Source: Chrysophaeum taylorii (lineage: Eukaryota; Sar; Pelagophyceae; Pelagomonadales; Pelagomonadaceae). Taken from it: DNA of 51,124 nt. Position 1 is the first letter of the stretch; the number at the start of each line of letters is the position of its first letter. Below the pieces are notes generated by a model. That model was not told the DNA's origin and made no database searches. It saw nothing but the letters and a program-made list of their open reading frames with translations. A program made the position numbers and the translations under genes. This document shows positions 10,101-44,913 of this stretch, piece after piece. The DNA is taken from contig JAQMWT010000545.1 of the NCBI GenBank assembly GCA_029834535.1, forward strand, positions 1 to 51,124. Reading direction: 5' to 3'.

Positions 10101-13100
10101 AAATGCTTGTGCCCCAAAAGATAATGCGGGAAAAGTCGCATGGGATGGTTGCATCTTGTCTCTGCTGCAGTCAAAAGCTATGGAGGAAACCAATGGAGAA
10201 ACCATGAGCACATAGGTGGCGTCTGGTGGCCAAAGTTCGTGTGGGCTTGGCTGAGGTGGCTCCAAAGTAGGATTCCTTCTTGGGTATGACTCAGGCGTTG
10301 CGATGAGTTCGTGCTCGAGATCATAGTCGTCCAATAGATGACATGAGGTGGTCGCGAATGAGCGATGCGTCGACCTGGTGTCAGGGGAGACCGAGGTGGT
10401 GCAGTGACCTGTCTGGCGGAGGTAGGCTTGCTGGCAAGATCCCAGCGGGTGCGCATAACTCTGGCGAGTGCTGACATTGTCTTGAGCCTGATCTGTCGTC
10501 GTGCAGGGAGGCGAGGTCGTCTGTGCTGATGCGGATTGCAGCGACAGGGGCGGGTCAGGTGCCTGGGAGGCTGGAAGGCGGCCTTTGTCTTCCAGAGGCG
10601 AAGGGAGCAAGCTAAGCTGTAGCTTCATCTCATCGTGATCAGATAGGCGCAATAAGCTAGTACGCGTAATCGTGGTGCGCTTGCCTGTATCTTCACGATG
10701 GACCTGTGCGTCCTGCGGTGGTGCTTCTGCGAGCGGGACATAGCTGAAGGACTGATCCATCGGACGGGGTGCATCAGCTATGAATGAGACAGGAGCCAGT
10801 AGCAGTGCAAGGTCGGGTGACAGAACGTGTGCGTGGTCGAGCGACTGAGCGTTGGACCTGGGCATTGTCGGCATAGTCTGGAACCGTGCTGTGCAGTTGG
10901 CTTGCATTGTCTCGTCTGCTACATCAATGGGCTGACTGGTGTAGCTAGCCGTTGTGGTCTTATCTTTCGTCTTGTCGTCCAAGAGAGACTGCGAGATAGT
11001 AGTCGTTGCTATGTGCGAGATTAGAAGTAGCTGTTGAGCAGCTGTGGGGAGCTTTCTTGTCTGGCAGTTTCTGTGGCTGTGGAGTTCCAGAGACATGGTT
11101 GCGCAGCGTCAGACGTCTTGGCATTGGGGATTGCCATAAAGTGACTCGTAAGTTCAAAGTCGGACGTCGGAGAATGCATCGAAAGACCTGTGAGATCACC
11201 AATTGAAATACGCCCTCGTAAGGCGTGCGCGACTTGGTGCGGGCGCGAGCGACTTATGTTGGTGATCGGAAGGTCGTGAGACACGTGGCGGCGCGGAGCG
11301 TCGGTGGAAATGACGAGTGTCTTGGTGTTAAAGGCGGTGACGCGGAGAGCATCGAGAAGCGTGTCATGCTCCAAGAGCAAAATCGCGTGATGCGAGTGGT
11401 CCGAAGTCAGTGCCAAAAGGGGTGTTGTGCGCGGCTGACCTGTCTGCGAGGTAGTGCAGATGGGTGCGTGAGCTGAGATCCCGTGGTGGAGAGTATCCGG
11501 CCTGGAATGCGTGGGGTCCAGTGCGGGAAATCGAAAAGGGGGATCGCCGAAGGAGAGTGCAAGTTCGCTGGGGTCATAGTACGTGAGTGCAGTAGAACCA
11601 AGGGCGATGGAAGGGTCAGTCTTGCAGGGTGCATCCTCAATGGCGGTGATGCGGGGACCAGAGCAGTGAGTGCCGTAGTGACCAGGGTTGCCCATAGGCG
11701 TGGAGTACATGCGAAGGTGCGGGCATGTAACATGCGTCCTCGAATGAGGAGTGACATGCCGAGCGATAAGACGCTTTTGAGGGAGGCATCGTGCGTGACT
11801 AGGGTGCATGTTTGCGGTGGAGCCGGCAGCTGGCATGGAACATTCGTCGTACATTCCTGTTATGCGAAAATGCTGACAGAAGCGGCTCAGGTGGAGCGAG
11901 TCTGTGCAGTGCGCTCGGATAATGTCCCCTGAGAGCGCAACATCGATTTTCCGGTGGCAGCGCAAGCGTGTGGCGTCCAGAAGAGAGCTATTAGCGGACA
12001 TAAAGGGCCGATGTGGTCGCAATAGAAGCGTGCATAGTTTGCGGCTGATCAGGGCGTTCAGGACTCTCGAAGTCTATGTCTGTTACTGCGGCCATGGGGA
12101 AGGCTTGCCAGAAGCTTGGTCGCGGTGAGACATAAGGGTCGTCTTCCGAAAGGAGTGCGTCCTCTGACTGCGAGTTGAAGAGCGGGTGGTGACGTGCTGC
12201 GACTGATGCTCGTGCGATGACATCCAGCGAATCGTGACATGGTGATCGCAGATGGGTCCGTGCAACCAGCTGAGCAGTGTCATCCAGTGCATCCGGCCGA
12301 GAAGGTGGATGGTGGGTGCAGCAGCGAGCGCCGGTGAGCGGCAGTGCGCGCCTGTCTTCGGGGAGAGAAGGCAGCGAGGTGGAACCAGCTTCGAAGTGAT
12401 CGGGAGCGGCTGATCGAGAGATATCGAATAAGGCGGGAGTGCCTGGCGAATCTGAGCTGATACCTGCAGGTGCGGTGAGTTCCTGCGAGTATGGTGACCG
12501 TGGGACCGTTGACAGCGTGTCTTGTCCTTGTGGATACGGCATTGCGGGGGCATTGGTGATGGCGCTTGGATCAGGCGGCTGATCTGGAATGGTCGGGGAG
12601 ACCATCTTCGAGGCTAGTGAAGTTGGTCTTGCTTCTTCACTGTATGCGCCAGACCGGGGGGCTGAATCCGAGAGGATGTTGTCAGTAGCCTGCGGCTCTG
12701 GTGCCTGGGGCATTGAATACGGTGGGGCCATGGATCCTTGAGTGTGGTTGCCATAGTCGATGTAGGCGTAATACTCGGGAACATCTCGAGGTGTCTTGTT
12801 CTTTGACTTGTCGAACGTGGGAACGAGGTGGCTTGGCGTTCCGTCGGCAAGGCTGCTTCCTGGGCCGTAGTGCCCGAAGAGAGAAGAAGCCCCTGTGCAT
12901 GTCCTGGCAGCATGATGGTGAGCATGACCATCAGGGAGAGAGCTGTCTGTTGATAATTCGGGAATTTGTCGACTCTTGATCTACGTTGTTGTGCTTCTTG
13001 GTTTCGCTTTGCACGTCGGCAGGGCTGCTGTCTGGACCGTTGTGCCCAAAGAGAGAGGAAGCCTTTATGCATGCCGCGGCAGCTTGATGGTGTTCGTTAC

Positions 13101-17039: not shown

Positions 17040-19403
17040 TCATCTCGTAAACTGCGCCATCTTGTGAATATCAATAATGGTAACAGCATTCGTTGATGTC
17101 GCTGCAAGTCGTGTACCAGCGGCATTCCAAGCGACCTCAAATATATCTGAGCTGGAGGTGGGAACAGAGACTGATGCAACAGTGTTGGTGTCACCAGCAG
17201 ATTGTATTCCAGAGTATGCAGCGTGCGAGGCATTTGAGGCACTGAAATCGCTTGCTGCCAGGAATGTCTTAAGAAGAACACCAGATCTCACCGACCAAAT
17301 ATTCACCTGTCCACCTAATGAGCCAGATGCGAGGAGTTCGCCGCAAGGCGAAAAAGCAATGGTGTACACTTTTTTGTCATGCTTTTTTAGCGTATGCGCA
17401 CACACGCCTGCTTCTGCATCCCACAGTTTCACAGTTGCATCAAAAGAAGCAGATGCTAACCGAAGAGGAGCGGACGGGTTCCGGGTACCAGGACCCGTCG
17501 GTGACCAGCGAATAGTGTATATCTCTTCTGAGTGCTCACGGAACCGCCGAATCGGCGTTGCGAGGCCCAAGCGCCAGAGCATCACAGATCTATCATCTGA
17601 ACATGAAGCAAGCAAACTCCCTGAGGGGTCCCAGCGAATGGCATTCACTTCATCAACATGTCCACTCAAAATTTGGATTGGTTTGGTTCCTTTGAGAGAC
17701 ACCACACTTTCGTCGCTCTCACCTGTCAGCCTCGGGTTACTGTGCTCAAGTCTGCGCGACAACTGAGATTGTGTTCGAACGTTGGTGCTCATCGTCGCAG
17801 GAGAGTCGTCGTGAGGAGCAGCATCCTTGCTCTTGTCAAGTTCCTTTTGCAAGCATGAACTATCCTCATTCGATGCCCCAAACGCACTATCATCTGAAGG
17901 AATTGCACAGACAGCAATGGTTCGGTCAGTGGAACACGACGCAAAAACATCGAGGCCTCTGCCTTCATCATCACCGTTCAACACAAAACTGGACGGATCA
18001 TCTACAACGGCAGGGCCATGCTTCCAATCGACATCAAGAACCTGCGCTGAATGAGCTTCAAATTTGGTTTCCAAGCGCCCCGTTGCTACATCCCACACAG
18101 AAATACACTTGTCATATGAACCGGTCAAGAGCCGTCGACCGCAATCATTGAAGCGCAGCGAGAAGATTGACTCTGAGTGGGCAGAAAGAAAGTGTTTCAA
18201 CTCACCCTCGCGCGTCCAGACACGTGTCACTCCGTCCATACAGCCTGTCGCCAAGAACAGTCCGTTGGCTGACCATTCGAGCGTTGTCACATCGCGATCC
18301 TCACCTGCTACGGTTAACTCAGACATGTTGAATTGCGGGCATTCAAGCACTTTGCAATTGGTAGGTTCGGTGGATTGCGACAGTCTCAGGTCCCAAAGCC
18401 TCACGGTCGAGTCACCAGAACCCGACGCCAGTATGTCATCACTTGGATGCCAGGCACAGCAAAAGACTTCAGCTGAATGCCCAGATAAAACTGCTACATC
18501 CTCTGATAAAACGTTCGATTCGCTTCCAAAGCGGTGTGCAGTGCATTGACTCTGCTCGATAAGGCTCATGTGTGTGTTTTGGTTCTGATGAAAAGGTGCT
18601 GATAGGTGTTTCGGTTGCGGTGTAAACTTTGGTGCGGAATTGCCGCGAGGTAATTCTTGTTTACCCTCCTGCTGTGTTGACACTGAGTTGACCACTGAAC
18701 ACTTTGATGGAATTGTACCCGGAGTCGATACAGTCATATGCTCACGGAGAGGCAAGTAGAAACCTTTTGCCGGTGATTCGACATCGCTGTGCTGCAGATC
18801 ATGTGAAGAGGTGCTTGCAGATCTTAAGGATGAAGCCTGCGGCTTTTCAACTGCTTTCTGGTTCACATGGTGACTTGATCTATCCGTTGATGACGACGTT
18901 TGATGACCTGTGCTTGTTACAGGCGTAACAGCGAGACTACGGCGCTTTCGTTTCGCATCTGGCTCATCAGTTGGTAAGGGATCATCATCCTCATCTTCAT
19001 CTCGATTTTTATCGAACTTCACACTCCACCCGGCATAACGCACTGCTTGAGTCTTCAACATGGTTTCCCATAGGGGGGGTGTGAGTAATGACGTGCTTGC
19101 CACGGCAACATCTCTAACTTCTTCAGCACTCTCACAATTCACCCCATGCCTATCACTCGCAGTCCGGAGCTCTTCTCCTGAATGTGACTCGGTAGAAAGC
19201 TGTTGCTCAACTTGAAGATACAGTAGGCCTTTCTGAACAAACGAGATCAGCGCCCCAGGCGGAACTTGGCTGGCCTGGGTCGCTGCTATTGACGATTTCA
19301 AAATTAGCGACTCGTAACTAAATGTGAACGAGGAGTGCACAAATCCCGACTCCTGCAAGTATCGATACACCAGATAATTCACCTCTTCAGCCGAAATCGC
19401 CAT
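17040..19403 (-). CDS. TBL1: TBL1/HOS15/Sif2-type LisH and WD40 co-repressor subunit
   Basis: A single uninterrupted frame of 787 codons from an ATG. Residues 4-36 form a LisH motif (EEVNYLVYRYLQESGFVHS), and 47-66 match the helix that follows it in TBL1 (PPGALISFVQKGLLYLQVEQ). A basic run DAKRKRR at 149-155 is a likely nuclear signal. Residues about 303-787 form the WD40 propeller, with blades ending in VRLWD, TRVWT, ISVWD, VMLWR, VKLWD and VNIWS, and the hallmark IRWSPTGPGTRNP (632-644). In other eukaryotes such proteins tetramerise through LisH and link histone deacetylases to chromatin (SMRT/NCoR in animals, Set3 complex in yeast). Unusual are an acidic, Ser-rich linker (about 160-300) and insertions in the propeller at about 505-575 and 713-750. 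It is the only intact gene here, and transposon debris flanks it on both sides. Confidence 0.95.
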   Translation of the reverse strand: MAISAEEVNYLVYRYLQESGFVHSSFTFSYESLILKSSIAATQASQVPPGALISFVQKGLLYLQVEQQLSTESHSGEELRTASDRHGVNCESAEEVRDVAVASTSLLTPPLWETMLKTQAVRYAGWSVKFDKNRDEDEDDDPLPTDEPDAKRKRRSLAVTPVTSTGHQTSSSTDRSSHHVNQKAVEKPQASSLRSASTSSHDLQHSDVESPAKGFYLPLREHMTVSTPGTIPSKCSVVNSVSTQQEGKQELPRGNSAPKFTPQPKHLSAPFHQNQNTHMSLIEQSQCTAHRFGSESNVLSEDVAVLSGHSAEVFCCAWHPSDDILASGSGDSTVRLWDLRLSQSTEPTNCKVLECPQFNMSELTVAGEDRDVTTLEWSANGLFLATGCMDGVTRVWTREGELKHFLSAHSESIFSLRFNDCGRRLLTGSYDKCISVWDVATGRLETKFEAHSAQVLDVDWKHGPAVVDDPSSFVLNGDDEGRGLDVFASCSTDRTIAVCAIPSDDSAFGASNEDSSCLQKELDKSKDAAPHDDSPATMSTNVRTQSQLSRRLEHSNPRLTGESDESVVSLKGTKPIQILSGHVDEVNAIRWDPSGSLLASCSDDRSVMLWRLGLATPIRRFREHSEEIYTIRWSPTGPGTRNPSAPLRLASASFDATVKLWDAEAGVCAHTLKKHDKKVYTIAFSPCGELLASGSLGGQVNIWSVRSGVLLKTFLAASDFSASNASHAAYSGIQSAGDTNTVASVSVPTSSSDIFEVAWNAAGTRLAATSTNAVTIIDIHKMAQFTR

Positions 19404-22081: not shown

Positions 22082-22762
22082 ATGCCGCGAACGTTCGAGC
22101 TCGACGTCGACGCGCCACTTGTCAAGGCTGTCCTGGCCACCGGCACCTGCCGACAGGTCTGGTCCGACTGGCAACTACTGAACGCTGTCGTTGCGCGCGA
22201 CCGGTCGAAGAATCTCCGAGGCGTGGCCCTCGACTCGCTGAATTTTGCGCTCGGGCCACGACATGCATCAGGCGAGTATTCCGACAGTGCGAATGGGATT
22301 TACCGGCGCAACTATAAAAAGACGGTGTCTGGGCTGTGCCTACGTCGTCTTGCAGCCGCACGAGAGCTTACCGGGGCGACCGGCCGAATTCCGTTTCCGG
22401 AGGCTACGAATAATACGTTCTGGACCACCGTCGGGCGAAAACAAGCTTGCAGCCTTTCGCGTGAGCCAGCGCTTGCGATTCTGCCGGCTCCGGCGCCCGC
22501 CCCGGCAGCCCCGGTCGTGCAGGGCACCGACACCGGCCGAGTTCGAAGCCCGTCGCCGACGCCGTCGTCTGGGAGCAAGCGACGCGTCCAACACGGCCGA
22601 AGCTACGCGACGCCGCCTCGCCAGAAGAGTCGAATGAGTGGTCAGGAAGATGACGGCGAATACCGCGACAGCGACGAGATGGACGCGGGGTTGAGTTTGG
22701 AGGAGCTACAAAGGCGACTCCGTGATTATAAAGCTCTGGTGAAGTCGCTACGCACCTTGTGA
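22082..22762 (+). CDS. First ORF of the gypsy region, possible Gag part
   Basis: 226 codons from an ATG. The first 120 residues are well ordered (VKAVLATGTCRQVWSDWQLL and NGIYRRNYKKTVSGLCLRRL), followed by an Ala/Pro-rich linker, a basic stretch (SGSKRRVQHGRS) and a C-terminal heptad segment (LSLEELQRRLRDYKALVKSL). There is no zinc knuckle, and no similarity by eye to the two Gag remnants at 1-5.6 kb. Position directly before the protease suggests Gag or a Gag-like product. It could instead be an unrelated gene. Confidence 0.4.
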   Translation: MPRTFELDVDAPLVKAVLATGTCRQVWSDWQLLNAVVARDRSKNLRGVALDSLNFALGPRHASGEYSDSANGIYRRNYKKTVSGLCLRRLAAARELTGATGRIPFPEATNNTFWTTVGRKQACSLSREPALAILPAPAPAPAAPVVQGTDTGRVRSPSPTPSSGSKRRVQHGRSYATPPRQKSRMSGQEDDGEYRDSDEMDAGLSLEELQRRLRDYKALVKSLRTL

Positions 22763-23546
22763 ACCAGTGTCCGCGATTACATTACTTGGCGAGTCGTCCA
22801 CGGACGACCCACCGTTTGTTTTTGACGAGGAAGCCCTCGACGCTATCGGCTTATCTTTGGACCCTCCAGAGACGACCTTTAGCGACCGAACTGGCTGTGA
22901 GCCAGACATGGATTTCTGCAGCGATTGCACGGATGATCATTCGACGGACGAGACGATGACCATCGCGAGTGATGCAGACGACGATCTTACGATAGAGTTG
23001 ACGTCGGGGACGACGCCATCTTTCCCTGCGGACCCCCCCGAAGCGGTTTCGGTTACGACGGATCGAGCCACGGATACGCCACCGGAAGAAAAGGATGTTA
23101 AATCGCATAGTGCGTCGGACGAGAAGCTACGTGTACGGTCCGAAGACGAAAGGGTCCCTTCTCCGATTGAGCAATGCCCGAATGTGTCACCGCCAGAAGA
23201 AGAGAGCAGTGACGGTGTTGCCGGAGTCGAGCCGAACCCGACCAAAGATGACGGATTTAAGAAGAAGATTATCAGCGTCCTCGATTGGGACGAAGACGAG
23301 CCGACATGGAACCTGCAGGATTGGTGGACGAGAACTCGGAACTTCTTGCTAAAGAAGCCACCAGAACAGCCGCTCAGCTACGGACTCGAAGCCGCAGCCG
23401 ACACGGTAACGATCACCGACGGCGGTGATGATCAACCGATGACTAATGAATCTACGGATGCATTCTGGAACGACGAAATGAGTGAGTTATGGGAGAGGTC
23501 TCTTGCTTCGAGAACAACGAAGATCAGGATCCCCTACCAACACTGA
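22743..23546 (+). CDS. Acidic disordered ORF of the gypsy region
   Basis: Open from 22743 with no ATG until late; the first candidate start at 22767 is GTG, so it was probably joined to the preceding ORF by a frameshift. The chain is acidic and rich in Asp, Thr and Pro, with a short aromatic block (DWDEDEPTWNLQDWWTRTRN). It overlaps the next frame by about 58 nt. Likely the spacer between Gag and protease; no domain is recognised. Confidence 0.4.
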   Translation, partial: SRYAPCEPVSAITLLGESSTDDPPFVFDEEALDAIGLSLDPPETTFSDRTGCEPDMDFCSDCTDDHSTDETMTIASDADDDLTIELTSGTTPSFPADPPEAVSVTTDRATDTPPEEKDVKSHSASDEKLRVRSEDERVPSPIEQCPNVSPPEEESSDGVAGVEPNPTKDDGFKKKIISVLDWDEDEPTWNLQDWWTRTRNFLLKKPPEQPLSYGLEAAADTVTITDGGDDQPMTNESTDAFWNDEMSELWERSLASRTTKIRIPYQH

Positions 23547-24200
23547 CTCCCTCCGAGACTGTTATGGGGGAAGAGCGGAAGCCACCGGATAAAGAGGCTG
23601 CCGCGAGCGCTGCGTCAATGACGCCGACAATAGATGACACGAGAGCTCAGGCCGCGGTGTCGATGCCCAACCCCGGCGACGAGCGAGTCAGAGCCCAATG
23701 TTCTCGCACGTCGTTGACGCCGCGAGATGGCAAGACGATCCAAGATGATTTGGTTACCCTCAGTTGTTTGGATACGGGGACTCTTATGTTTATGGCCTGT
23801 CACATCTACAGGAATCGTGACGGACCGAAATTCTCGACGACCATCGGTGTTGATGGAATGGCAGACGTTTCCTATATTTGCCGCGAAATGGTCAGAAAGT
23901 TGGCCAAATGGTCAGAAAGTTGGCCAAAGATAAGTTGATTTTCGATGTTTTCGATGAAGGCGAGCTTCCGATTAAGCGCAAGCTGTACGGATCGGGGTTG
24001 AATACGACGACGATTTATCGTTGGATCGCGATCCGGGTCGCTCTCGCCGACGACATCGCCGCCCCCATTGTCGCTATTGTGGCCGACACCAACTATCTGT
24101 TCCTGTTGGGAGGGCGCGATATCCGAGTTTTAGGAGCCGTCGTGGACTACCCCCACGATCGGATCTGTTTTTATCGAACCCAAGTCGTCTACGGGCGCAA
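23489..24200 (+). pseudogene. Retropepsin-like aspartic protease domain of gypsy Pol
   Basis: The first frame (to 23938) reads TTIGVDGMADVSYICREMVR. The second (from 23908) carries the rest, ending in NYLFLLGGRDIRVLGAVVDY and PHDRICF. This is the retropepsin plan: catalytic D followed by ADVSYI, a flap region, then LLGxDxLxxxxAVxDY. The usual DSG or DTG is DGM here (Asp codon 23852-23854), which may be a variant active site or a mutation. A 20-bp tandem duplication (23888-23907, 23908-23927) shifts the frame inside the domain, so this copy cannot make the protease. Confidence 0.75.
23888..23927 (+). repeat. 20-bp tandem duplication causing a frameshift in the protease
   Basis: ATGGTCAGAAAGTTGGCCAA occurs twice in immediate succession. 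Removing one unit joins frame 2 (23888) to frame 1 (23908) at the same codons M-V-R-K-L-A-K, so the duplication is the lesion. Confidence 0.9.
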
Positions 24201-25635
24201 GAAGATTAAAGTCAAGGGTGAACGAGTCGATGCACCCATTGCGACCTTTCGATCTGTTTACGTTCGAGACCCGCTAACCGTGCCGATTTACAATCATCAG
24301 CACGACGCCTTTCGGCAGAGTCTCGACCTGGTCAAGACTCGAGTTTACGCTCGTTTGAGCACGACTAAAGATCTCCGCAGCCCGCCGCCGGAACGAGCGG
24401 TAGCCCTGGCGACGCGGGGACATTCTACGACCAAATTCTCCTCAGCTCCGGGAGAAGCCGCGCGGGAAGTAGTTGCTTACGCTGCGCGCACGCTTCAAAT
24501 CGAGCCCGGTCGAACTTACAATCGACCGGTTATTTTGTCGAAGCCTATGGAAAAAGGACGGGTTTTCGTCGCTACGTTGGATGAAAACGAGCAGTTGGGA
24601 GTTGTCAACGGGATGTGTTCTCCTTACGAAGAGCACGACCGGTCAGCTGCTCGTGCGGCGGTTACTTCCGCGGAAGAAGTGCCGACGGTCGTCACTCAAG
24701 GCGGGGTTCTCGCGATTGGCGACATCGTTCGGTACGAAGATGAGCTGAACGTTTCTACGATCAACGAGCTCACGAAAGAATGTGAAGACGGATACGACAA
24801 GGGGATCCTTTCTTTCGCCGTTTCCGTCGCTAGTCACTTGACGCGCTGCGACGAATCTCCCCCGCCAATGTTGCTGAGCATGGCGCAGAAGGACGCTACA
24901 GCCACTGCTGTGGACGAGTCCTCCCTCGAACGACCCAAAAGAGACGACGATTTCGCTCGACGGTCGGAAGAAGATGAAAAGAAGCGCCGCGAGATCACCG
25001 AAACAGAGATCCGCCGCCGATACGAAAAGGTTCAATGGCTTCCAATCACATATCGCAAGGTGGTGATGCTGTTCAGTGGAGCCGGAGGCAGCACTTTGGG
25101 TCTCCAACGAGCCAACGAAATGTGTGGGACGTCGTTTCGAGTCGTGCTAGCGCTCGATGCGTCGGACACCGCCAACAAGATCCACCACATGAATTTTCCG
25201 GACATTCCTGTGGTGCAGCGCACGCTTTGTGGTCGATATGTTACAACCTTACGGTTGATCGAATCTTATTTACCTTACGCGGAATGGTCGTCGTCGATGT
25301 GTGTCGCGTCGCCACCCTGCGTACACTCCGCTCTGTGCAACTTGACTTCCAGAGATGTTGGGAAGGGAGTCACCGCCACCCACTGGACGATGAAATTATG
25401 CAAGATGGCTGGTTTCTTCATGTGGTTGATAAGAGCAGGAGGCCTCGATTATTTCTTACGTTGCACGTTTGCACCCTTACGTGTACGTCGTCAGTTTTTA
25501 CGACATAACGCCCAGTTTGAGGAGCTGTCGCGTGCGGTTGTTGGTTTCCAGCCATCCGCTCCATTTGCAAGAATATGCAACAAGAGTTCGCCGCTGCGCT
25601 TGGCTACGCCGACGAACGACATTTACATCAGATGA
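24200..25635 (+). CDS. C5-cytosine DNA methyltransferase domain within gypsy Pol, N-terminal half and preceding linker
   Basis: The frame is open from 23878 to 25635. After a linker rich in charged residues it reads KVVMLFSGAGGSTLGLQRAN (motif I, FSGAGG at 25072-25089; SAM binding), then VVLALDASDTANKIHHMNFP (motif II, acidic residue binding the ribose) and CVASPPCVHSALCN (motif IV; catalytic Cys codon 25318-25320). These are the defining motifs of C5-cytosine methyltransferases (family knowledge). After about 25350 this frame loses sense. A neighbouring frame continues with HPLDDEIMQDGWFLHVVDKS (motif V region), and the frame from 25575 has a motif VIII-like NNIGSSRAATDAAYTV. Motif VI (ENV) is not clear. 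The domain lies between protease and reverse transcriptase. Confidence 0.8.
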
Positions 25636-26180
25636 ACAATATAGGATCGTCACGAGCCGCGACAGACGCAGCTTATACCGTTACGCGTGTCCCGCTTCGC
25701 GTAGGACCGCACCGTTCCGATTGCAGATCTCTGAATCTGAAAATGACTTCGGAGTTGCTGACAATGCCCCTTGATTTTGACTGGGCCGGCTTCTCCAGGA
25801 CGACCTCGTTGAAACACTTGGCGTCCGTCGTGCCACCAGACACGATGGCCTTATTAGTTCTCGATATGCACAACTCTGTGACCAAGGATTTTCACCTGAG
25901 CGGCGAGACCTTGCCGTCCGCGTTGAGTCCTGCAGACCGACCGTTTGATTATTATTTGCGAATTGATGAAACCACCCTTCGTCACGTACAAGTTCCGCTG
26001 TTGAACACGCGCACACGTGTCGTAAGATGGGTGTCGACTGATGATCTCCAAGATCGCACCAAATGGAAACCTCCAGAGGTGCCGTTGATTCCGCCTGCAA
26101 CAGATGAGCCGGGGACGTCTCATGCTTCTTCTGCTGCCCCCCCCCCGACAACCAAATTTGGACGTTCCGCCAGATCCTGA
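25575..26180 (+). pseudogene. Methyltransferase C-terminal part and linker to reverse transcriptase
   Basis: This frame begins AALGYADERHLHQMNNIGSS and RAATDAAYTVTRVPLR, plausibly motif VIII of the methyltransferase, which normally reads NAxxFGxPQxRxRxF. It continues with ordered sequence (MPLDFDWAGFSRTTSLKHLA, PDTMALLVLDMH) that could be the target-recognition or a retroelement-specific region, then a Pro-rich linker. It overlaps the preceding frame by 60 nt and is followed by a further frame change near 26160. Confidence 0.5.
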
Positions 26181-27839
26181 GCGAGATCGGGAACCGAAGA
26201 TTAAGAGCGAGCCGAGTGTTCGTGTCAAAGGCGAGAGGATCAACAAAAGACATCCGGAATTGAGACTAAAATATGAGAAGAAGTTCGATGTGTCATGGAA
26301 AGATGCGCCGCGCGATGCTGAGGGTGCACCGCTGCCGCAAACTCCCGAGCATGTCAAGGATAACGAAGTGATGAAAGTGAAAATTCCTACGAAGGAAGAA
26401 GCTGACAAGGTTGTTCAGGAGCTTGGAATTCCTGACAATCCGCACTTAGATGACGATGCGAAACTGATGCTCCGTCACTGTGTGCAATACTCTTGGGACC
26501 CGACTATGAGACCTGTGGACTCGCCTCCTGTGTCTCTACGATTCCAAGACGCGAATCCGCGACCGATTAAGATGACGCCCTACCGACTGACGCCTGCGAA
26601 GCTCGATTGTCTCCGCGAGCAGATCAGCGAGTGGTGCCGGGATGGAGTCATTCGTCCGGCCAACTCACCTTGGGCCTTTCCTGTATTGATGCTTCCCAAG
26701 AAAGGTGCTGAGATTGGAACGTCAAACGCGTTCCGTGCCGCAGTTGACTTACGTCAGCTCGACGACCAATTGGGCAATGGCAGTTGGCCGAACATTCGAC
26801 AAGACGATGCTTTAGATTTCCTCTCGCCATGCGACGTTGGCGGACATGCATTGATATTAGATGGGGATACCACAACTTCCGTCTGGATCCGGCAGCGCAA
26901 GACGCTGTCACGATGGTTAGCCCACTTGGCGCTCATAGTTTCTTGCGATTACCTCTAGGTGTGAAGACGGCCGGAGCTCTTTTCTGCAAGCAAATGGCGA
27001 GCGACCTTTCGAAATGGATGTATCGAGACTTGGTTGCATCTGTTGACGATATTATGATGGGATCTGACGATCTTCATCGACATTTACAAGTTTTGATCGA
27101 AGTTATGTGTCATTTGGCACAGGGAGGGTACAGCCGTCGAACCGCGAAGTTCCACCTTCTCAAGGATGATATAAAATTTCTGGGACACATTTCGACCCCA
27201 GAAGGCTTGAAGCCGAATCCGAAGACGATGGAACCACTCCAGAAGATGCCGATTCCAGGTACTTTGCCGAATACTTCTCCGAAGACCCAGATACGCTCTT
27301 TAATCGGCATGAGTAATTACTGCCGGCGATATGTGAAGAGCTACTCGAAGATCGTGGGACCGCTGAGGCGATTATGCCTCGAAGGCGCAAAGTTCGAGTG
27401 GGCGCCCGAGTGTCAAAAAGCTTGGGATACGATTATTGACGCTTTGGTTGATTCCAGAGGAGTCTACCACCCCGATTGCGATCTGCCCTTTCAGATCCGA
27501 TCCGACGCTTCCAAGGATGGACTTGGAGCATATCTCTTCCCGATTGTCGAAGTTAAGGACGATGCCGGAAGAGTGACTCGAGAAGAACGAGTGGTTGAAT
27601 ACCGGAGCCGAGCCGTGCCGAAGGAGATGCGCAATTATGAGCCCCGTCGGCTGGAGCTGCTGGCAGTTATCCTTTCTCTAGAGCACTTTCGAGCCTACAT
27701 CGAAGGGCACCGGACTGTTTTGGAGACCGATCACCGAAACTTGGCGTTTTTACGTAAGGCGACGCACTCGTCTGGGCGATGCACCTCGCCAATTTTGACC
27801 CTGAACTTGGTTTTAAGCCGGGAAAGTCACCGGGAATGA
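26104..27839 (+). pseudogene. Reverse transcriptase and RNase H of gypsy Pol
   Basis: The first frame (to about 26855) has the approach RPIKMTPYRLTPAKLDCLRE and VIRPANSPWAFPVLMLPKKG. The second frame continues CIDIRWGYHNFRLDPAAQDA (palm motif A), RLPLGVKTAGALFCKQM and VASVDDIMMGS (catalytic VDD near 27040-27060, with SVDD in place of YVDD), then FLGHISTPEGLKPNPK. RNase H follows with IRSDASKDGLGAYL, RRLELLAV and LETDHRNLAFL, which carry the acidic catalytic residues. A one-base shift lies near 26855 and a second near 27780, where the frame passes into the integrase part. Confidence 0.9.
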
Positions 27840-29883
27840 GTATCCCTGACTGTCTCTCCCGCAATCCAATAGGTCATGTCATCGAGACCGACGAGTTTGG
27901 AGAACCTTTGAACCACGCTTATTTGGTGTTCCAAGAGCTTCCCCGACCGGTTGATGACCAAGGAATTCCCGCCTCCGGCTGCCACTTCATACTGTCGTTT
28001 GTTACGACCGAACTGCCGGAAGACGAGGAAGAAGATCCTGAAAAGGATCCGATGAGATTGGCTACGTCTCACGCTACGAGACAACGTCGGAAGAACCGCG
28101 TGCGAGATGAGCCGCAGGTCTTCAAGGACGCAGCCGCTTACAAGGATTATATCGATAAAATTCCCGATAATATGACGCTCGCCGAGATCGCACGTGAGCA
28201 AGAATCTGATGCTACTTGCGAGGATATTCGCTACCGAATGGCCCAAGGTCAGACGCCGCGACGTTCCCGAGCGAACGAACGATACGAAGTTGTGAAAGAC
28301 ATTCTTTACCGCATTTCTGCTGATTTGCACCCGATGATTGTGGCCCCTGCTACGTTGCGCAAGCGCATTATTCGACTCTACCATGACACTCCGGTTAATG
28401 GTGGTCATATGGGACGTCACAGTACTGTCCAGGCTATCCAAGAACGATTTTGGTGGCCCCGCATGTCGAACGAAGTCGGTGTCTTCATTGCTGAGTGTTT
28501 AGTTGGCCAGAAAGCTCGTACACCTGAGCCGAAACGAGCTGGACTCTTGCAACAGCCTGTCTACGATGGTGATGGCGCTGTTCTATGCATGGATTTATTT
28601 GGGCCCTTGTCCAGCGCTGGTCCCGAGACGTATCTTCTAGTATTTTTTGATCCGTTCTCGCACTTCTTGATTTTGGATGTTTTGAACGACAAGACTGCTG
28701 AATCCATTCTTGAGTCATTTGTCACTAACATCCTCCTCAAGGGCTACTTGCCCCAGATGATTCGTACCGACAACGGTAAAGAGTTCGTGAACAAGTTGAT
28801 GCGCGGGTTTTGCCATCTCTTCGACACACGACACCAAACTACGATTCCCCATCATGCCCAGTCGAACCCGGCTGAGCGTGTAAACCGATTTATCAAGGCC
28901 TTCCTCCGTGCTTGCCTTCAGGGCCGGAACATCACGGATTGGCCCGACTTTGCCCATTATATTGCGCTTTGCTACAACCGCAAGTTTATTCCAGCCACGC
29001 AGATTTCTCCCTTTATGCTGCGCCTGAACCGTCAGCCGATGCTGCCGACTGACTACACGCTTATGGACTTTGATTCGCGATTGTTGCCGAAGACTCGATC
29101 TGATGCAGTCGCCGAAACTCGTGAACGATTGAAGTATTATACGAAGATCGTCCGCGAGGCTCGTGATAAAGCTTCGAAGAAACAACGATTGGCCTACAAC
29201 GCCGATCATGTCGATGTTGAATACAAGGGAGGATCGCATGTTTTGCTCTACATTCCTCTCCTTCAGAACAAGCTTCGACCGGAATGGTGAGGACCGTTTA
29301 TTATCAAGGAACGCCTTTCCCCGGTCACCTATAGGATTGAGTCTCTCGACTCTCCGCCCGAAGAACGACGTGTTCATGCTAGTCAGATCACGCCTGTGAT
29401 GGTACCTCCGATCATTGATCAAGCCATCCGCAAACCCGAAGAAACCTTCCGTGATGATTATCAGCACGGTAAGTTAGTTGTTTTCCGGATTCCTGACCGG
29501 AAGCGCTCTGATTGGCGCAAGAAGATTTATGTTGCCGAAGTTTACGAGCCTTACGATTACCAGAATGATCGTGTTGCTCTACATTTCTATTCCGATTTGG
29601 GTCCGAACGATGATGTCGCTTATTTCAAGCCGACCTCTCACCTTTCGCACCGCAAACTCAAGCCCGAGTTCACGGACGTTGACGGTCGCAGTTTACCGAC
29701 AAGTCCAAGATCTCATCCAGCACAACTCCTTGTGTCACGGATTTCGCTCCGCACGAGATTGATGTGTTGGTCCCCAAGTTTACTTTACGCAGTGGTCGAG
29801 TTCCCGAACCGATCATCACCCGCGTTTACAAGAAGATTCGTTCACGAGATGCTCGTAAGGCGAAGCAGCGCTCCTCGCGCTAG
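27779..29883 (+). pseudogene. Integrase of gypsy Pol
   Basis: Starts with the RNase H to integrase linker (FKPGKSPGMSIPDCLSRNP). A His/Cys zinc domain follows: H-D-T-P-V-N-G-G-H, FWWPRMS and CLVGQK, where the second Cys is Gly (codon 28505-28507). The DDE core is complete: VLCMDLFGPL, MIRTDNGKEFVN and NPAERVNRFIKAF. The C-terminal GPF-like module is split by a TGA at 29288-29290 (REW-stop-GPFIIKER); the frame then continues open. A further shift near 29690 leads to TLRSGRVPEPIITRVYKKIR and a TAG at 29881. No chromodomain is obvious. Confidence 0.9.
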
Positions 29884-29933
29884 CCGCTCGCTGGGGCAGC
29901 TCGAATTCTTACCAGGGGTGTCCTGTGGCGGCA

Positions 29934-30260
29934 ACTCCCGCCTCCTAAGGCTTACCCCTCCTGTACGGCCCCCCTTATCAGGGGCACCCTACTCCGCTGT
30001 GATGATGTTAGTTTTCTTTATGACATCAACTCTCTTTTCTCGTGACATGCGTCACCCTGATTTCTGTGTTTCGATAATATCTTAATCATAAAGCAACAGC
30101 CGATCCTCCAGTTGTGAGGACCAGGCACGGAAGTTGTTTGTGGTTGTGTGGCGAGAGAACGGCCTTCCTCGTCCAGTGACTCCATCAAGGGCACGGACGC
30201 GAGCGGCGAGCTTAGATTCCAAGGCGCGCCAGGTAGGCAAAATTTCTCCTAACGCCACAG
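29934..30260 (+). repeat. 3' LTR of the methyltransferase-bearing gypsy element
   Basis: Starts TGTGGCGGCAACTCC 50 bp after the pol stop, preceded by ACCAGGGGTGTCC. It matches the minus-strand LTR at 2210. The right end is uncertain because family R copy D begins near 30266. Confidence 0.6.
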
Positions 30261-34293: not shown

Positions 34294-36439
34294 ATCAAGA
34301 GTCGACAAATTCCGAGTTATCAACAGACAGCTCTCTCCCTGACGGTCATGGTCACCATCATGCTGCCAAGACATGCACAAGGGCTTCTTCTCTCTTCGGG
34401 CACAACGTCCCAGGAAGCAGCCTTGCCGACGGAACGCCAAGTCACCTCGTTCCCGCGTTCGACAAGTCAAAGAACAAGACACTTCGAGATGTTCCCGAGT
34501 ATTACGCCCACATCGACTATGGCAACCACACTCAAGGACCCATGGGCCCACCGTATTCAATGCCCCAGGCACCAGAGCCGCAGGCTACTGACAACACCTC
34601 GGATTCACCCCCCCGGTCTGGCGCATACAGTGAAGAAGCAAGGCCAACTTCACAGTGAAGAAGCAAGGCCAACTTCACTAGCCTCGAAGATGGTCTCCCC
34701 GACCATTCCATATCTGCCGCCTGATCCAAGCACCATCACCAATGCCCCCGCAGTGCCGTATCCACAAGGACAAGACACGCTGTCAACGGTCCCACGGTCA
34801 CCATACTCGCAGGAACTCACCGTACCTGCAGGTGTCAGCTCAGATTCGCCAGGCACTCCCGCCTTGATCGATGTCTCTGGATCAGCCGCTCCCGATCACT
34901 TCGAAGCTGGTTCCACCTCGCTGCCTTCTCTCCCCGAAGACAGGCGCGCACTGCCGCTCACCGGCGCTCGCTGCTGCACCCACCATCCACCTTCTCGGCC
35001 GGATGCACGGGCTGACACTGCTCAGCAGGTTGCATGGACCCATCTGCGATCACCATGTCACGATTCGATGGATGTCATCGCACGAGCATCAGTCGCAGCA
35101 CATGATCACCCGCTCTTTAACTCTCAGTCAGAGGACGCACTCCTTTCGGATGCCGACCCTTATGTCTCACCGCGACCAAGCTTCTGGCAAGCCTTCCCCA
35201 TGGCCGCAGTAACAGACATATATTTCGAGAGTTATGCACGCCCCGATCAGCCGCAAACTGTGCACGCTTCTATTGCGATCACTCCGGTCCTTTACGTCCT
35301 CTTGCATAGCTCTCTTCTGGACGCCACACGCTTGCGCTGTCTCCGGAAAATCGATGTTGCGCTCTCAGGAGACTTTCTCCGCGCGCACTGCACAGACTCG
35401 CTCCACCTGAACCGCTTCTGTCAGCATTTTCGCATAACAGGAATGTACGACAAATGTTCCAGGCCAGCTGCCGGCTCCACCGCAAACATGCACCCTAGTC
35501 GCGCACCATGCCTCCCTCAAAAGCGTATTATCCCTCGGTACGTCACTCCTCATTCGAGGAAGCATGTCACATGCTCGCACCTTCGCATGCACTACACGTA
35601 TATGGGCAACCCTGGTCACTACGGCACTCGCTGCTCTGGTCCCCGCATCTCCGCCATTGAGGATGCACCCAGCATGACTGACCCTTCCATCGCCCTTGGT
35701 TCTACTGCACTCATGTACTATGACCCCAGCGAACTTGCACTCTCCTTCGGCGATCCCCTTTTTCGATTTCCCGCACTGGACCCCACGCATACCAGGCCGG
35801 ATATTCACCACCGCGGGATCTCAGCTCACGCGCCCATCCGCACTACCTTGCAGACAGGTCAGCCGCGCGCCACACCCATTTTGGCACTGATTTCGGAACA
35901 CTCGCATCACGCGATTTTGCTCTTGGAGCATGACACGCTTCTCGATGCTCTCCGCGTCACCGCCTTTAACACCAAGACACTCGTCATTTCCACCGACGCT
36001 CCGCGCCGCCACGTGTCTCACGACCTTCCGATCACCAACATAAGTCGCTCGCGCCAGCACCAAGTCGCGCACGCCTTACGAGGGCGTATTTCAATTGGTG
36101 ATCTCACAGGTCTTTCGATGCATTCTCCGACGTCCAACTTTGAACTTAAGTGTCACTTTATGGCTATCCCCAATGCCAAGACGTCGGACGCTGCGCAACC
36201 ATGTCTGGAACTCCACAGCCACAGAAACTGCCTGACAAGAAAGCACTCAGCTCTCCACAGCTGCTCAACAGCTACTTATAGTCTCGCACATAGCAACGAG
36301 TACTATCTCGCAGTCTCTCTTGGTTCTTCTTACAATGTAGATAATCTCTCTCTCCCCCTTCCCAACAACGGAACGAACACAACCTGATTTGCCTACATAC
36401 TACACTTGTACAAATGACGTACATCTAGACGAACTAATG

Positions 36440-36984
36440 CTATGCGCTCTGGCTTGACGGGTTCATCCGCTTGGCGCCCTCGGGCAGTAAAGCGCCCGCA
36501 AAGGTGTTGCGTTTAAGACGCGGACATATCGACGTCGGAAGCGGTTGAAGGTGAGGTGGGCGGGAACGGTGCGGCGGGCGCGCGGGAGCGAACGGAGCGG
36601 GCGCCGCGGCTTTGGCCGAGGGGCGGAGTGCTCCGAGGAAAGCCTTGCGGAGCTCGGCGACTTTCATCTGGCGCGTGCCGGGCTTGCCGTCGGTCCTAGG
36701 GACTTGGAGCTTGAGGCCCATCAGCTTGGCCCTTCGCACGAGGTCCATCCTTTTTGCCGTCTCGATCGATGTTGGCGGCAGCTCCTCGCACAGGGCCGCG
36801 AGGGCATCACGTTGGGCATCTCGGGTGGCCTCCTGAGCAGCAAGCCGTTCGCCCGTCGAAGGCTGCGGCGCCGAGGGCTTGAACCACTTGGCCCTGGCAT
36901 ACTTGTGTTCGAACTGGTCGAGGAAGGCGTCGAGCTTCTTCCAGCCGATCTCGACGTAGTTGACCGGCCGCTACAGCTGCTCAC
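36440..36984 (-). pseudogene. Unrecognised gene fragment inside the TIR element
   Basis: The minus frame is open from about 36972 without ATG: VNYVEIGWKKLDAFLDQFEH, KYARAKWFKPSA, ERLAAQEATRDAQRDALAAL, then RMDLVRRAKLMGLKLQVPRT and MKVAELRKAFLGAL. Codon and residue use look like true coding, with a basic helical C-terminus (an HeH/SAP-like look, tentative). It may be a captured gene piece or the C-terminal tail of a transposase. Confidence 0.4.
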
Positions 36985-37109
36985 TGCCGTTCAGCTGATT
37001 CTTGAACTTCATGACAAGCCGATTCTGTACCATATTTCACACATATCTTCGTGCTTATGTGAAATATTCGGAGTGCCTTGATGAGACACGGCCGCACGTG
37101 AACTATCTT

Positions 37110-37370
37110 CGCCTCGTTTTTGAGACCGCGGACATTCTGACTCACTGTCAACTTCGTCGTCAACTTCCTTCCTCGCCCCCCGGCCATACCTCGTCCCGCT
37201 GCGAACGTTCCGGAAGCCAACCGGCCCATTCGGGAGGCGAACAGGTGCCAACCTACGCCGGGAGGACCGGTGCCCTCGCAAGGGAGGCGAACAGGTGCCA
37301 ACCTACGCCGGGAGGACCGATTCCTTCACAGGGAGCGGTTTCAGAAGGCACCGTCCTCCATCGCGAAAAG
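37110..37370 (-). repeat. Diverged S-like fragment with internal tandem duplication
   Basis: Shares CGCCCCCCGGCCATACC and GCGAACGTTCCGG blocks with S1 and CCGTCCTCCATCGC with S2. A segment GGGAGGCGAACAGGTGCC followed by AACCTACGCCGGGAGGACCG is present twice in tandem. Confidence 0.55.
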
Positions 37371-37430
37371 TATGGCGCTATGAGAGACTTGAAGCAAGGG
37401 CTTATTGATAGCCCCTTGCTTGGCGCATCA

Positions 37431-37459
37431 ATAACCCCTTGCTTGAAGCAAGGGGTTAT
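37431..37459. repeat. 29-bp palindrome
   Basis: ATAACCCCTTGCTT, G, AAGCAAGGGGTTAT: 14-bp perfect arms around one base. Additional partial copies of CCCCTTGCTTG in both orientations flank it (37390-37480). Confidence 0.9.
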
Positions 37460-37720
37460 CAATTACCCCTTGCTTGAAGGTTGAGAGTAGAATCAGGGTA
37501 AGGGTCAGGGGCGCGCCATTTATCATCTTTTTTGCCATCGCGGCGGCGAGTCGCGAACGACAAGGTCCCCACAACCGAAGTCTCTAGACGAAAGGGCCCG
37601 CAGGTAGCCCGTAAGGAAAGGGGCAAATGAATCCAATCTTCTAGAAACTCCGTGCCGCGCTTCGTGCCCCTTGGCGGCGCCGAGTCCGTGTTCTGTTTCG
37701 GAACGTGCTGACTCAGCAAC

Positions 37721-38130
37721 TAACTAACTAACTAACTAACTAACTTCAGACCTCTCCCGAGCATGGGAGCCAGGCCGGACCGGCAGGAGCCGGTACGGAA
37801 TCACAGAGGAAAATCACACAGTTGGGGCAGAGGCGAGGGACGAGGACGGACTCGTTGATGGTGTACCGACACTGCGCGCGGTCTTATGCGAGGTCGTGCA
37901 AAAGCGTCGCAGGCCGCGGACGTGTTGGTCCACGAACAATCGACCTGTCCGTCGCGTTCTGCCCAACCGAGCGAACCCCATCCCAGCGCGGACTTTCCGG
38001 GTGCTAACCGGCCACCCCGGGAGGCGAGCAGGCACCGTCTCACTCCGGGACGGCCGGGGCCGCCGCAGGGAGCAAGCGTGTTAGGCGCCGTCCTCCATCG
38101 CAACCAACGGTTAGCGATCGCAGGGGTTAG
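37721..38130 (-). mobile_element. SINE-like element S3
   Basis: Near-identical to S2, with a longer (TTAG)n tail. AGCAAC precedes the tail (37715-37720) and recurs at 38138-38143, a possible target duplication. It lies within the 2031-bp TIR element. Confidence 0.7.
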
Positions 38131-38156
38131 GAGACTTAGCAACAAAATCCTTCTTT

Positions 38157-38330
38157 AAACTTCTCAAAACTTCTCAAAACTTCTCAATACTTCTCGAAAT
38201 TTCTCAAAACTTCTCAAAACTTCTCAAAACTTCTCATAACTTCTCAAAACTTATCAGAGCTTCTCAGAGCTTCTCAGAACTTCTCAAAGCTTCTCAAAAC
38301 TTCTCAATACTTCTCATATTTTCAACGGTC
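38157..38330 (+). repeat. Decamer tandem array ACTTCTCAAA
   Basis: About 17 units of ACTTCTCAAA with variants (GCTTCTCAGA, ACTTCTCATA) close to the right end of the TIR element. Confidence 0.9.
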
Positions 38331-41286
38331 AAAATGTCTACCTAGTAAGTAGAACTTGGATGACGAGACGAAAAATAAGACCACAACGGCTAGTTACACC
38401 AGTCAGCCCATTAATGTAGCAGACGAGACAATGCAAACCAACTGCACAGCACGGTTCCGGACTATGCAGACAATGCCCAGGTCCAACGCTCAGTTGCTCG
38501 ACCACGCACACGTTTTGTCACCCGACCTTGCCCTGCTACTGCCCCCTGTCTCATTCATAGCTGATGCACCCCGTCCGATGGATCAGTCCTTCAGCTATGT
38601 CCCGCTCGCAGAAGCACCACTGCAGGACGCACAGGTACATCATGAAGATACAGGTAAGTGCACCACGATTGCGCGCACTAGCTCATTGCGCCTATCTGAT
38701 CACGATGAGATGAAGCTACAGCTTTGCTTGCTCCCGTCGCCTCTGGAAGACAAATGCCGCCTTCCAGATTCCCAGGCACCTGACCCGCCCCTGTCGCTGC
38801 AATCCGCACCAGCACCGACGATCTCACCTCCCTGCACGACTGCAGATCAGGCACTAGCCAATGTCAGCACTCGCCAGAGTTAGACCAGCTGGGATCTTAC
38901 CAGCACGGCTACCTCAGCCAGGCAGGTCACTGCACCACCTCGGTCTCCCTTGACACCCGGTCGACGCATCGCTCATTCGCGACCACCTCCAGTCATCTAT
39001 TGGACGACTATGATCTCGAGCACGAACTCACCGCAATGCTTGAGTCATACCCAAGAAGGAATTCTACTTTGGAGCCACCTCCGCCAATCCCATGTACTTT
39101 GGCCACCAGACGCCACCCATGCGCTCATGGTTTCTCCATCTGTTTCCTCCATAGCTTTTGACTGCAGCAGAAACAAGATGCTATCATCCCATGCGACTTT
39201 TCCCTTTTGGGACACAAGCATTTCCTTCATGTCAGATGTTTACGCTCATAGTACCGCCACACACGGCAACCAAGATAGACGTGGACTGCGTTCCACCCTC
39301 ATCTCTGAGCGTTACCTCCGACATGCTGCTCCCGGCACTACTAGCCAGTCCCATCACGTCTGATTCAGCTCCCATCGCCATGTGTAACGTCATACGTCAT
39401 ATTCCGATTACAGCCCAGACACCGCACAGGCTCCTATGCACTCGCGACGGCACGTTCTCCGCCCCTCTCGGTTTAGACTACCAACATTGCGCCATCCTCA
39501 TGGTGCACTCACAGTCAACTGAGATGCACGCTCGGTTGTTGCACAGTACGATGCCCGAACACCTATTTGTTCATGATAAGCACAACACTGTGGTCTCAGT
39601 CACGGCTTACGCGCCCCCTCCGACCGCCGCCCGGCTCTGCGCTCGTTCCGCAACCACGGTCTCTCCGCCTCACCGGCAATTCGAAGATTTCACCCAGTTC
39701 AAATTACGAGGGCGCGTTCGAGGGCGCGTTCGATTTCCACCGCCGACAAGATCTGCTTCGATTCGTATCAGTCACGTCTCCTATGGCTACTCTGGCTACA
39801 TCGGAACTCACTTCAAGGCACGTACCGAAGTCCCTCTTCCTAAGGACCTCTGTCACACGACAAGACCTGATGAGCACTCGTCGTTCCTCCCCGCTTCGAC
39901 GCGACTCCCGACGATCCAACTCTCGACGATTTGCGATGACACTAAGTTCCGTCATCAATGCAATTCCGAGCATCCCACGCTCTTCCGTCAGTCTCTTGCA
40001 CGTCACACCTCTCAAGTTTCAGCTCGCTCGATTCCATCCTGCATGCTGCCATATGCAAATGAAGTTTCTGTCACGCCAACGCTACATGTCGCAGTTATCG
40101 CCAGTTTCGCGCAACAAATGCCCGCCACTAAATGATAGCCGCACGCAGAGTCCTTTGCTCGCCTCTTTTAACGTCCCTCCCAGCACTATGCTTGACGCTG
40201 AAGCTCCACACCTCTATGGTTCGGTTACAACACGACTACACGCGACATCCTCGCCCAGTTGTGTTCACGTTTCGCATCTGTCGACATTACCGTCCGAATT
40301 CTGCTTCGGACACAGCTCAGACTACACTCGCATATTATGCTGTTATGACGCACCCGGTTCGCTCCTCTCCGTTCACACTGCAGGTTCCATCTTGCAGAAC
40401 TCTGAGCTCAACAGCCGCCATTGCGATTCGCACCCAGTCGACATTTTCCGTAGCACCCGCGAGGATAACCCCCAATCTCCACAGGTTGGACACGCGCTCT
40501 GCTCTCATCATTCTAGCGAATGTCACTGCCGCACACCGCTAGCCCCACCCAGTTGTGTTACGAATCAAGGGAAGTCCATTGCCATGCCAATCTCTTCTTT
40601 CGTCCCCGCACACTCGCTGCCAGCCACAGTCTCGCGTGACTCCTATCGGACGTCCTCGCATTATGGCATTGCTTCATCAAATTCATTCTGGGACATCTCC
40701 GTCCACGCAATCTTGAACTTCGTGCTCCTACACGTTGTATACTGTACAGCTCTCGCATATCGACAACACCCTTCTGTCGAATGACTCACCTTTCAGTCAC
40801 TGCACGATTCACCAGGGATGCACCACGCTCCCTCGCGCTTGTACATCAAGGGAAGTTTGATTCTAGTGAAAACGACATCGGGCACGAAATGAATACTGGA
40901 TCAGTCGATTGTCACGACTCAGGATTAATTTGCCGAATAGAACACGGAAGATGCGACTCCGACCATACCTTCGAAGTCAGCTCTCCCCCAGGCAAGGGCA
41001 ATATCTTCGAACAGTCCATCGCCCTCAGGCATTTACTCCTGTTGCCCGACTTTTCTGCACAGGCACCGACTCTTCTGCACAGGACACACGTCTGCATCCA
41101 CTCAAACACGCGACATACTCGGAAACCTCGGTCTCAGTCCGATCATCTTTCGATGATAGCAAATGGCAACCTCCACCACACCACAACTCCAGGTCTACAG
41201 CAAATTTAGAGTTATCATGTTTATGGCCACCCCCAGACGACTTTATCCCGATATCAACATCACACCATGATTATCCGCATATTACT

Positions 41287-43705: not shown

Positions 43706-43901
43706 TAGAGAACAGTAATCACAACTGTGTTACCCTTCAGCAGAGCGTGAGAACAGTGGTAGTCTGTCCTCGAATCTGTCTCCTAATCGAGGACAGACGG
43801 TGTGCATAACACAGCGTTTTCTTAAATCAAAAGGTGGCAAAGTTAAGGGAACTAACCCTATAATAGGGGGTACTAACCCTAATTCAGATTTTATATCTCT
43901 A
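43706..43901 (-). repeat. 3' LTR of the copia remnant
   Basis: Minus strand starts TAGAGATATAAAATCTGAAT after GTTCAATCTGTGAGGGCG and ends CTGTTCTCTA; about 196 bp. It is homologous to family R LTRs, including the subterminal GATTTCGCTCA and GTTCAATCTG blocks before the LTR, which links family R to copia. Confidence 0.7.
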
Positions 43902-43939
43902 CGCCCTCACAGATTGAACGCGGTGAGCGAAATCAGGAC

Positions 43940-44910: not shown

Positions 44911-44913
44911 CTT

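Follow-up and report, generated by a model that had tools for sequence, protein, structure and literature searches.

Several retrotransposons that encode cytosine methyltransferases have been described. The available text of de Mendoza et al. 2018 (PMC5890265) reports DNA methyltransferase (DNMT) domains under purifying selection in Symbiodinium LINE and DIRS elements and in one Klebsormidium gypsy family. The DIRS-borne enzymes have de novo CG activity in yeast, and methylation of the element cDNA was proposed; the gypsy enzyme of Klebsormidium showed no activity in yeast, a result called inconclusive there (PMC5890265). The same text places the LTR case in Gypsy and gives Symbiodinium copia elements as lacking a DNMT, and the available part of a later paper names LTR Copia and DIRS elements as carriers of DNMT3, citing the 2018 work (PMC12344493). 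Other papers, in the parts available, speculate on antiviral roles (PMC6338049), report DNMT5 in haptophytes, pelagophytes and diatoms with a role in keeping up methylation (PMC9998398), describe an N4/N6 methyltransferase in an Ectocarpus DNA transposon (PMC12477816), and deal with plant DRM2 (PMC7385966, PMC9033089). DNA methyltransferases encoded by mobile elements run counter to the view of methylation as a host defence.

The stretch of DNA analysed here (the window; 51,124 bp, contig C545) was compared with the host genome of 70,800,356 bp in 697 contigs. It holds one copy of a Ty3/gypsy family (family A) and parts of a Ty1/copia family (family B), each with a domain resembling C5-cytosine methyltransferases (MTases). 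The closest described element is KnitGypsy-Dnmt3 of Klebsormidium nitens, which, on the available text of PMC5890265, shares an MTase in the Ty3/gypsy Pol frame, many intronless copies and purifying selection (its Ka/Ks is below 0.2). It differs in its DIRS-like repeats, whereas the one family A copy checked has an ordinary LTR pair, and in its DNMT3-related enzyme, whereas, among references that hold no DNMT3, the family A domain comes closer to prokaryotic C5-MTases; it is also a gypsy case, whereas here a copia family carries an MTase as well. SymbioDIRS-Dnmt3 and SymbioLINE-Dnmt of Symbiodinium share hundreds of MTase-bearing copies and a host with DNMT5, but they are DIRS elements with a tyrosine recombinase or LINEs, whereas A and B are LTR elements with integrase; SymbioLINE-Dnmt is in addition CpG-depleted, unlike A and B (PMC5890265, available text). 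The copia element mentioned in PMC12344493 would have a C5-MTase like that of B, and the available text describes no element for comparison. Prokaryotic and phage C5-MTases of the Dcm type have the same motif order and catalytic residues as A and B and 24-40% identity to them over parts of the domain, but are stand-alone enzymes.

The original prediction for this locus appealed to the capture of cytosine MTases by retrotransposons of algae and dinoflagellates. That precedent is real and includes one gypsy family (KnitGypsy-Dnmt3, PMC5890265, available text); what is new is another host and the presence of two LTR superfamilies in one genome. A literature search by title and abstract opening, covering mostly papers outside subscription journals, found no description of either family among the top entries listed.

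Results

The original prediction placed a C5-MTase inside a gypsy Pol, between protease and reverse transcriptase (RT), and the domain order supports this (Table 1). FSGAGG and SPPC share an open frame (23854-25635) with the end of a protease-like region, and gypsy RT, RNase H and integrase are found downstream (PF00078, PF17917, PF17921 and PF00665 matches). The domain is present where predicted, at 25060-25700, but this span misses its far end, as alignment to intact copies shows. The window copy of family A is dead. It is truncated at its 5' end at ~22740, as judged by blastn against other copies, and tblastn with the L029 frame as query recovers it in nine pieces with changing frames (22758-29862). 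One shift near 25431 lies inside the MTase and breaks it at catalytic motif VI, and relative to the intact copies the second half of the domain is read in other frames.

The region upstream of the MTase had been taken for the end of a retropepsin. The active site of retropepsins is D-S/T-G. In family A this sequence is absent and is replaced by DGM, once DGL, in all 7 copies examined (L029 and six others), and no Pfam protease match was found in the window frames. The label is therefore one of position and resemblance only.

Within 23254-27207, the window copy was compared with three other copies at the sites on which these agree. It is biased toward G+C, with A-to-G changes at 29/614 sites and T-to-C at 24/606, and with C-to-T at just 11/600 and G-to-A at 11/706.

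Table 1. Coordinates of features in the window (nucleotides) and in the family A copy L029 (amino acids)
Feature	Position	Strand	Evidence or remark
Third repeat family, with long open frames	7160-12966	-	
WD40-repeat protein gene	17040-19403	-	
Ty3/gypsy element, family A	22740-30259	+	5'-truncated, without 5' LTR; blastn to L029-L032; tblastn with L029 frame
Protease-like region, VDGMAD	23513-24270	+	alignment, without Pfam match; non-canonical active-site triad; end approximate, by eye
C5-cytosine MTase domain, family A	25006-25883	+	alignment to intact copies
MTase A motif I, FSGAGG	25072-25089	+	
MTase A motif IV, SPPC	25309-25320	+	
Open frame with RT and RNase H	26748-27839	+	PF00078 1.9e-9; PF17917 5e-20; PF17919
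Open frame with integrase zinc-binding and core domains	27758-29290	+	PF17921 4.1e-16; PF00665 6.1e-12
Integrase C-terminal part	29291-29862	+	PF22938 27.2 bits (cut-off 27); tblastn
3' LTR, family A, TGTGGCG...CGCCACA	29924-30259	+	matches 5' and 3' LTR of another copy
Third repeat family, with long open frames	~34300-41295	+	
Open frame with second C5-MTase, family B	41713-42993	-	PF00145 31.4 bits; domain 41941-42873, in copia pol fragment 41300-43287
Candidate LTR, family B	43706-43901	-	blastn 89-93% to the stretch that precedes the gag-like frame of L034, L036 and L038
Pol end of another family B copia copy	44388-44913	-	blastn 90% to L034; tblastn 44833-44913; RNase H-like by eye
Third repeat family, with long open frames	45197-51124	+	
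L029 MTase	aa ~1426-1725		
L029 RT	aa 1997-2161		
L029 RNase H	aa 2256-2368		
L029 H2C2	aa 2552-2610		
L029 integrase core	aa 2628-2721		
L029 p58-type C-terminus	aa 2867-2897		26.8 bits, just below cut-off 27

The domain recurs at a fixed place across the genome. A search of the host genome with the piece 25003-25635 gave matches for all 150 candidates scored, the window itself included; because 1181 candidates came up in the first look, this is a lower bound. A degenerate DNA pattern for ASPPCVHSA was found at exactly 300 genome sites (138 + 162) and its reversed form at none, so that SPPCVH in place of PPCQ, singled out as unusual in the prediction, is present but not special to the window copy. 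An RT active-site pattern was found at 172 sites. At 43 of the 57 sites on contigs covered by both pattern listings, motif IV lies 1.57-1.85 kb upstream on the same strand; the MTase is thus not peculiar to one copy. Frame-free DNA patterns applied to 23 distinct copies with a nearly complete domain (24 rows, two of them the window) detected motif I in 22, motif IV in 22, motif VI in 19, and motifs VIII and X in 23 each, the motif VIII pattern being short enough to match by chance.

The longest frame among the intact copies, that of L029, is a single one of 3057 aa, in which a gag-like variable part is followed by the protease-like region and the domains of Table 1. RT, RNase H, and integrase with H2C2 and rve domains occur in the Ty3/gypsy order. 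In the one copy checked (L029/L059), the LTRs form a TG...CA pair that differs by 4 substitutions and one gap over ~336 bases, and this copy shows no clear target-site duplication. The presence of LTRs implies that cDNA of family A would be synthesized before integration. In L029 the sequence TGGTGGAGGAATACGAGATTCGA, separated from the end of the 5' LTR by two bases, resembles a primer-binding site that would pair with a tRNA 3' end and is a candidate for that role.

Ten intact MTase A sequences were aligned; L010, open but frame-shifted inside, was left out. All ten match PF00145 (best E 1.3e-6; L029 25.9 bits, above the cut-off), and the match spans motifs I-II only. By itself the window frame reaches E 0.003 and 17.5 bits, under the Pfam cut-off of 22, so the family assignment made in the prediction is borne out by the intact copies and not by that frame. 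Motif I is FSGAGG (FSGVGG in one copy), and SPPC (IV), LIEQE (VI) and S-x-RVR (VIII) are present in all ten; motif IX reads MT-ELLTMP (ELRTMP in one copy) and motif X LASVVPP. The motif-IV Cys, the motif-VI Glu and the R-x-R are invariant. Family A departs from the consensus in having EQ for the usual EN in motif VI and no Gln in motif VIII. The Cys-to-Glu spacing is 38 residues, as it also is in M.HhaI.

Comparison of the alignment with a profile of 13 C5-MTases using hhalign gave a local score of 91.2 (E 1.1e-12), and the maximum among 100 column-shuffled controls, run against all 13 references, was 23.9. A had itself been the query that yielded eight of the 13 references; against the other five the score was 42.2 (E 2.7e-5). 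In a global alignment (probability 98.8%), motifs I, IV, VI, VIII, IX and X of A fall opposite those of C5-MTases, and IEQE and ENV are matched through their Glu residues. A reading of A without motifs VI and VIII, with VVNF taken as ENV, was dropped because both the residue spacing and the global alignment assign the Glu to IEQE and the arginines to SCRVR. Of 20 plasmid records, 15 matches were listed, with E between 0.01 and 6; 12 of these bear a cytosine methyltransferase annotation, two have no feature at the site and one record carries no annotation. In ncbifam and phrogs both A and B match dcm and DNA methyltransferase families, below the dcm cut-off. The best solved-structure matches of A are DNMT2 chains and are not significant (E 0.03-0.1). 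AlphaFold2 models were of unusable quality (mean pLDDT 34.9 for domain A and 30.7 for B), and a Foldseek search with this poor model of B had no match below E 0.001. Judged by motifs and profiles, the family A domain is a C5-MTase homologue and a regular part of the gypsy Pol.

A second MTase, missing from the original prediction, lies in the copia pol of family B. In L034, a copy of this family, an open frame of 1952 aa contains the MTase at ~310-620, a weak integrase core at 1016-1110 (E 0.006, below the cut-off) and RVT_2 at 1686-1933 (1.6e-38), giving the copia order of integrase before copia-type RT; the frame upstream is gag-like by position only. The MTase sits between a protease-like region, which reads DGG in 7 of 8 copies searched (L034 and six others), and the integrase. 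In the window, 43907-44548 has no Pfam match. The motif-IV DNA pattern of B was found at 98 exact genome sites and its reversed form at none. In 15 sequences, chosen for alignment by their ends, PF00145 is matched throughout (best 2.4e-10), and PCQHLS, VENV and K-x-R (for R-x-R) are kept in all; L055, a copy outside the alignment, reads ACQ at motif IV. Against the C5-MTase profile the alignment scored 88.5 (E 4e-12; shuffled maximum 24.5), and 64.1 (E 2.3e-8) once the two references found with B were removed.

The ratio of nonsynonymous to synonymous change was low in both domains. All family A values come from a single copy pair, L029 and L031, which represent two subfamilies 82% identical here: dN/dS was lowest in RT (0.020), followed by the MTase (0.071, at a dS of 1.67 that is close to saturation), the linker that precedes the MTase (0.19) and the gag part, which aligns poorly (0.44); dS was saturated in the protease-like part. 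In family B the MTase gave 0.097-0.236 over 14 pairs and 0.119-0.184 in the three pairs with the window copy. By these ratios, the MTase domains of A and B are under purifying selection.

A third repeat family with long open frames occupies three places in the window (Table 1). It shows faint collinearity with the copia pol of family B (20-37% identity, best E 1e-6), and its MTase motifs are gone, PCQHLS having become FCQHFRI. No purifying selection was seen in its longest frames, with open-frame dN/dS values of 1.42 and 0.71. The family looks like a decayed, non-autonomous relative of B that still multiplied. Because this family has lost the motifs and shows no purifying selection, the A and B domains are not open by drift alone.

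The two domains appear nearer to prokaryotic C5-MTases than to the host enzymes in a limited comparison, with a reference set that was partly chosen with A and B queries and holds no DNMT3. For A, hhalign scored DNMT5 at 16.6, host DNMT2 at 30.1 and the others at up to 61.1; for B, the values were 15.6, 18.2 and 75.4, and B against host DNMT2 alone gave nothing useful. Within this set neither host DNMT5 nor host DNMT2 showed the closer similarity expected of a source of the domains. The best single references were plasmid enzymes of Rubrobacter and Sphingomonas for A and the archaeal virus vir335 for B. No relation between A and B was found with hhalign (E 0.056); a 21-row tree sets them apart, but one clade was not rejected (p-AU 0.31) and branches of ~3 changes per site leave the tree uninformative. 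Protein database searches with the A region, the B region and the B alignment, together with scans of viral contigs, returned no relative; length limits and word matching weaken this result, and the host's own copies were likewise unmatched, so that the host itself is apparently missing from the database and relatives may exist elsewhere.

In the host genome PF00145 has at least 57 matches (123 of 474 candidates scored). One is a DNMT2 (3.9e-39 to a DNMT2 chain) and one a DNMT5 with SNF2 (2.3e-251 to a chain of 7r76, deposited as Rad8, which we take to be the Cryptococcus DNMT5 structure); among the other 55, all 31 examined belong to family B. One SRA domain was found. Host DNMT1, 3, 4 and 6 are possible, because genes with introns match exon by exon and 123 of the 474 candidates were scored.

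CpG observed/expected was 1.28 for the window A element, 1.35 for L029, 1.04 for L034 and 1.06 for the whole window. In the window A copy (23254-27207; sites where three other copies agree) transitions at CpG numbered 8/422 and other C/G transitions 14/884. Since CpG is undepleted and CpG transitions are not commoner, there is no sign of lasting CG methylation with deamination, and the possibility raised in the prediction, that the element uses methylation to hide from host silencing or exploit it, gains no support from CpG content. The data are compatible with methylation in other contexts, transient methylation or good repair.

Discussion

We propose that a captured C5-MTase has become a regular Gag-Pol part of gypsy family A, with another in copia family B, and methylates the element cDNA before integration; we put the probability of this reading at about 0.5. 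The MTase would be made as part of Pol, would stay with RT and integrase in the particle and would methylate double-stranded cDNA de novo, before or at integration. New copies would thereby arrive already methylated, and host DNMT5 could maintain marks placed at CG. The element might gain by passing as self DNA, by protecting its cDNA or by damping its own expression. By analogy, A and B most likely work like the published retrotransposon DNMTs, methylating element cDNA: for the DIRS-borne enzymes, which show de novo CG methylation in yeast, the same model was proposed, which supports our reading, whereas the inactivity of the published gypsy DNMT in yeast, called inconclusive there, weakens it (PMC5890265, available text). 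It is weakened too by the missing CpG footprint, by EQ for EN, by a motif VIII without Gln and by DNMT2 as the nearest, though not significant, solved structure.

DNMT2 is a tRNA enzyme, and the retrotransposon domains could likewise act on RNA, for example on primer tRNA or on element genomic RNA in the particle. We regard this as doubtful, if worth serious attention. The nearest solved structures of A are DNMT2 chains (E 0.03 and 0.1, not significant) and no CpG footprint is seen, and an RNA substrate was considered for LINE-borne DNMTs in the available text of PMC5890265, but A scores 61.1 with prokaryotic DNA C5-MTases against 30.1 with host DNMT2 (references partly chosen with A), and B has the PCQ and ENV of DNA enzymes. 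That the MTase targets the host genome instead, marking the insertion site or nearby chromatin or supplying the host with de novo methylation, seems unlikely: the two PF00145 matches recognised outside the elements are DNMT2 and DNMT5, and the single SRA domain is also in keeping with such a role, yet whole-window CpG observed/expected is 1.06 and DNMT1, 3, 4 and 6 may exist in the host.

Invariant catalytic residues make it less probable again that the domain is catalytically dead and serves nucleic acid binding or Pol folding. Motifs VI and VIII of A are off consensus, as such a domain might be, but Cys, Glu and R-x-R are kept in 10 of 10 intact A copies, and PCQ and ENV in 15 of 15 aligned B copies (the unaligned L055 reads ACQ). 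Chance resemblance, or a one-off insertion of a gene into the window copy, would suit a window frame that is broken and by itself below the Pfam cut-off, but is hardly credible, being contradicted by the matches of 150 out of 150 scored candidates, the 300 exact motif-IV sites, the fixed RT spacing at 43 of 57 sites and the purifying selection.

Under the cDNA reading, genetic parasites may themselves write chemical marks on DNA, since both domains appear to have been kept by selection in many copies. A further host, gypsy and copia together, hundreds of copies and strong selection raise the likelihood that LTR retrotransposition itself benefits from the domain. A bolder scheme, improbable as a whole, is that two unrelated LTR superfamilies each took up a prokaryote-like C5-MTase and jointly supply the de novo methylation of the genome, the marks being set on their own cDNA and copied by the maintenance-type host DNMT5. 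If DNMT5 is the only other DNA methyltransferase of the host, one methylome could show whether mobile elements provide the de novo step.

Other Features of the Genome and Window

Searches of the host genome for a phycobilisome linker and a silicon transporter gave 0 matches each. Genes for light-harvesting proteins gave 84 host matches in all; on contigs C88, C539, C390 and others they form tight arrays with equal scores. The host is a photosynthetic eukaryote; the missing linker argues against a red alga and the size of the genome against a dinoflagellate, and a stramenopile or haptophyte would be a mere guess. Between the repeats, the window contains an ordinary host gene, a single exon encoding a WD40-repeat protein of 787 aa.
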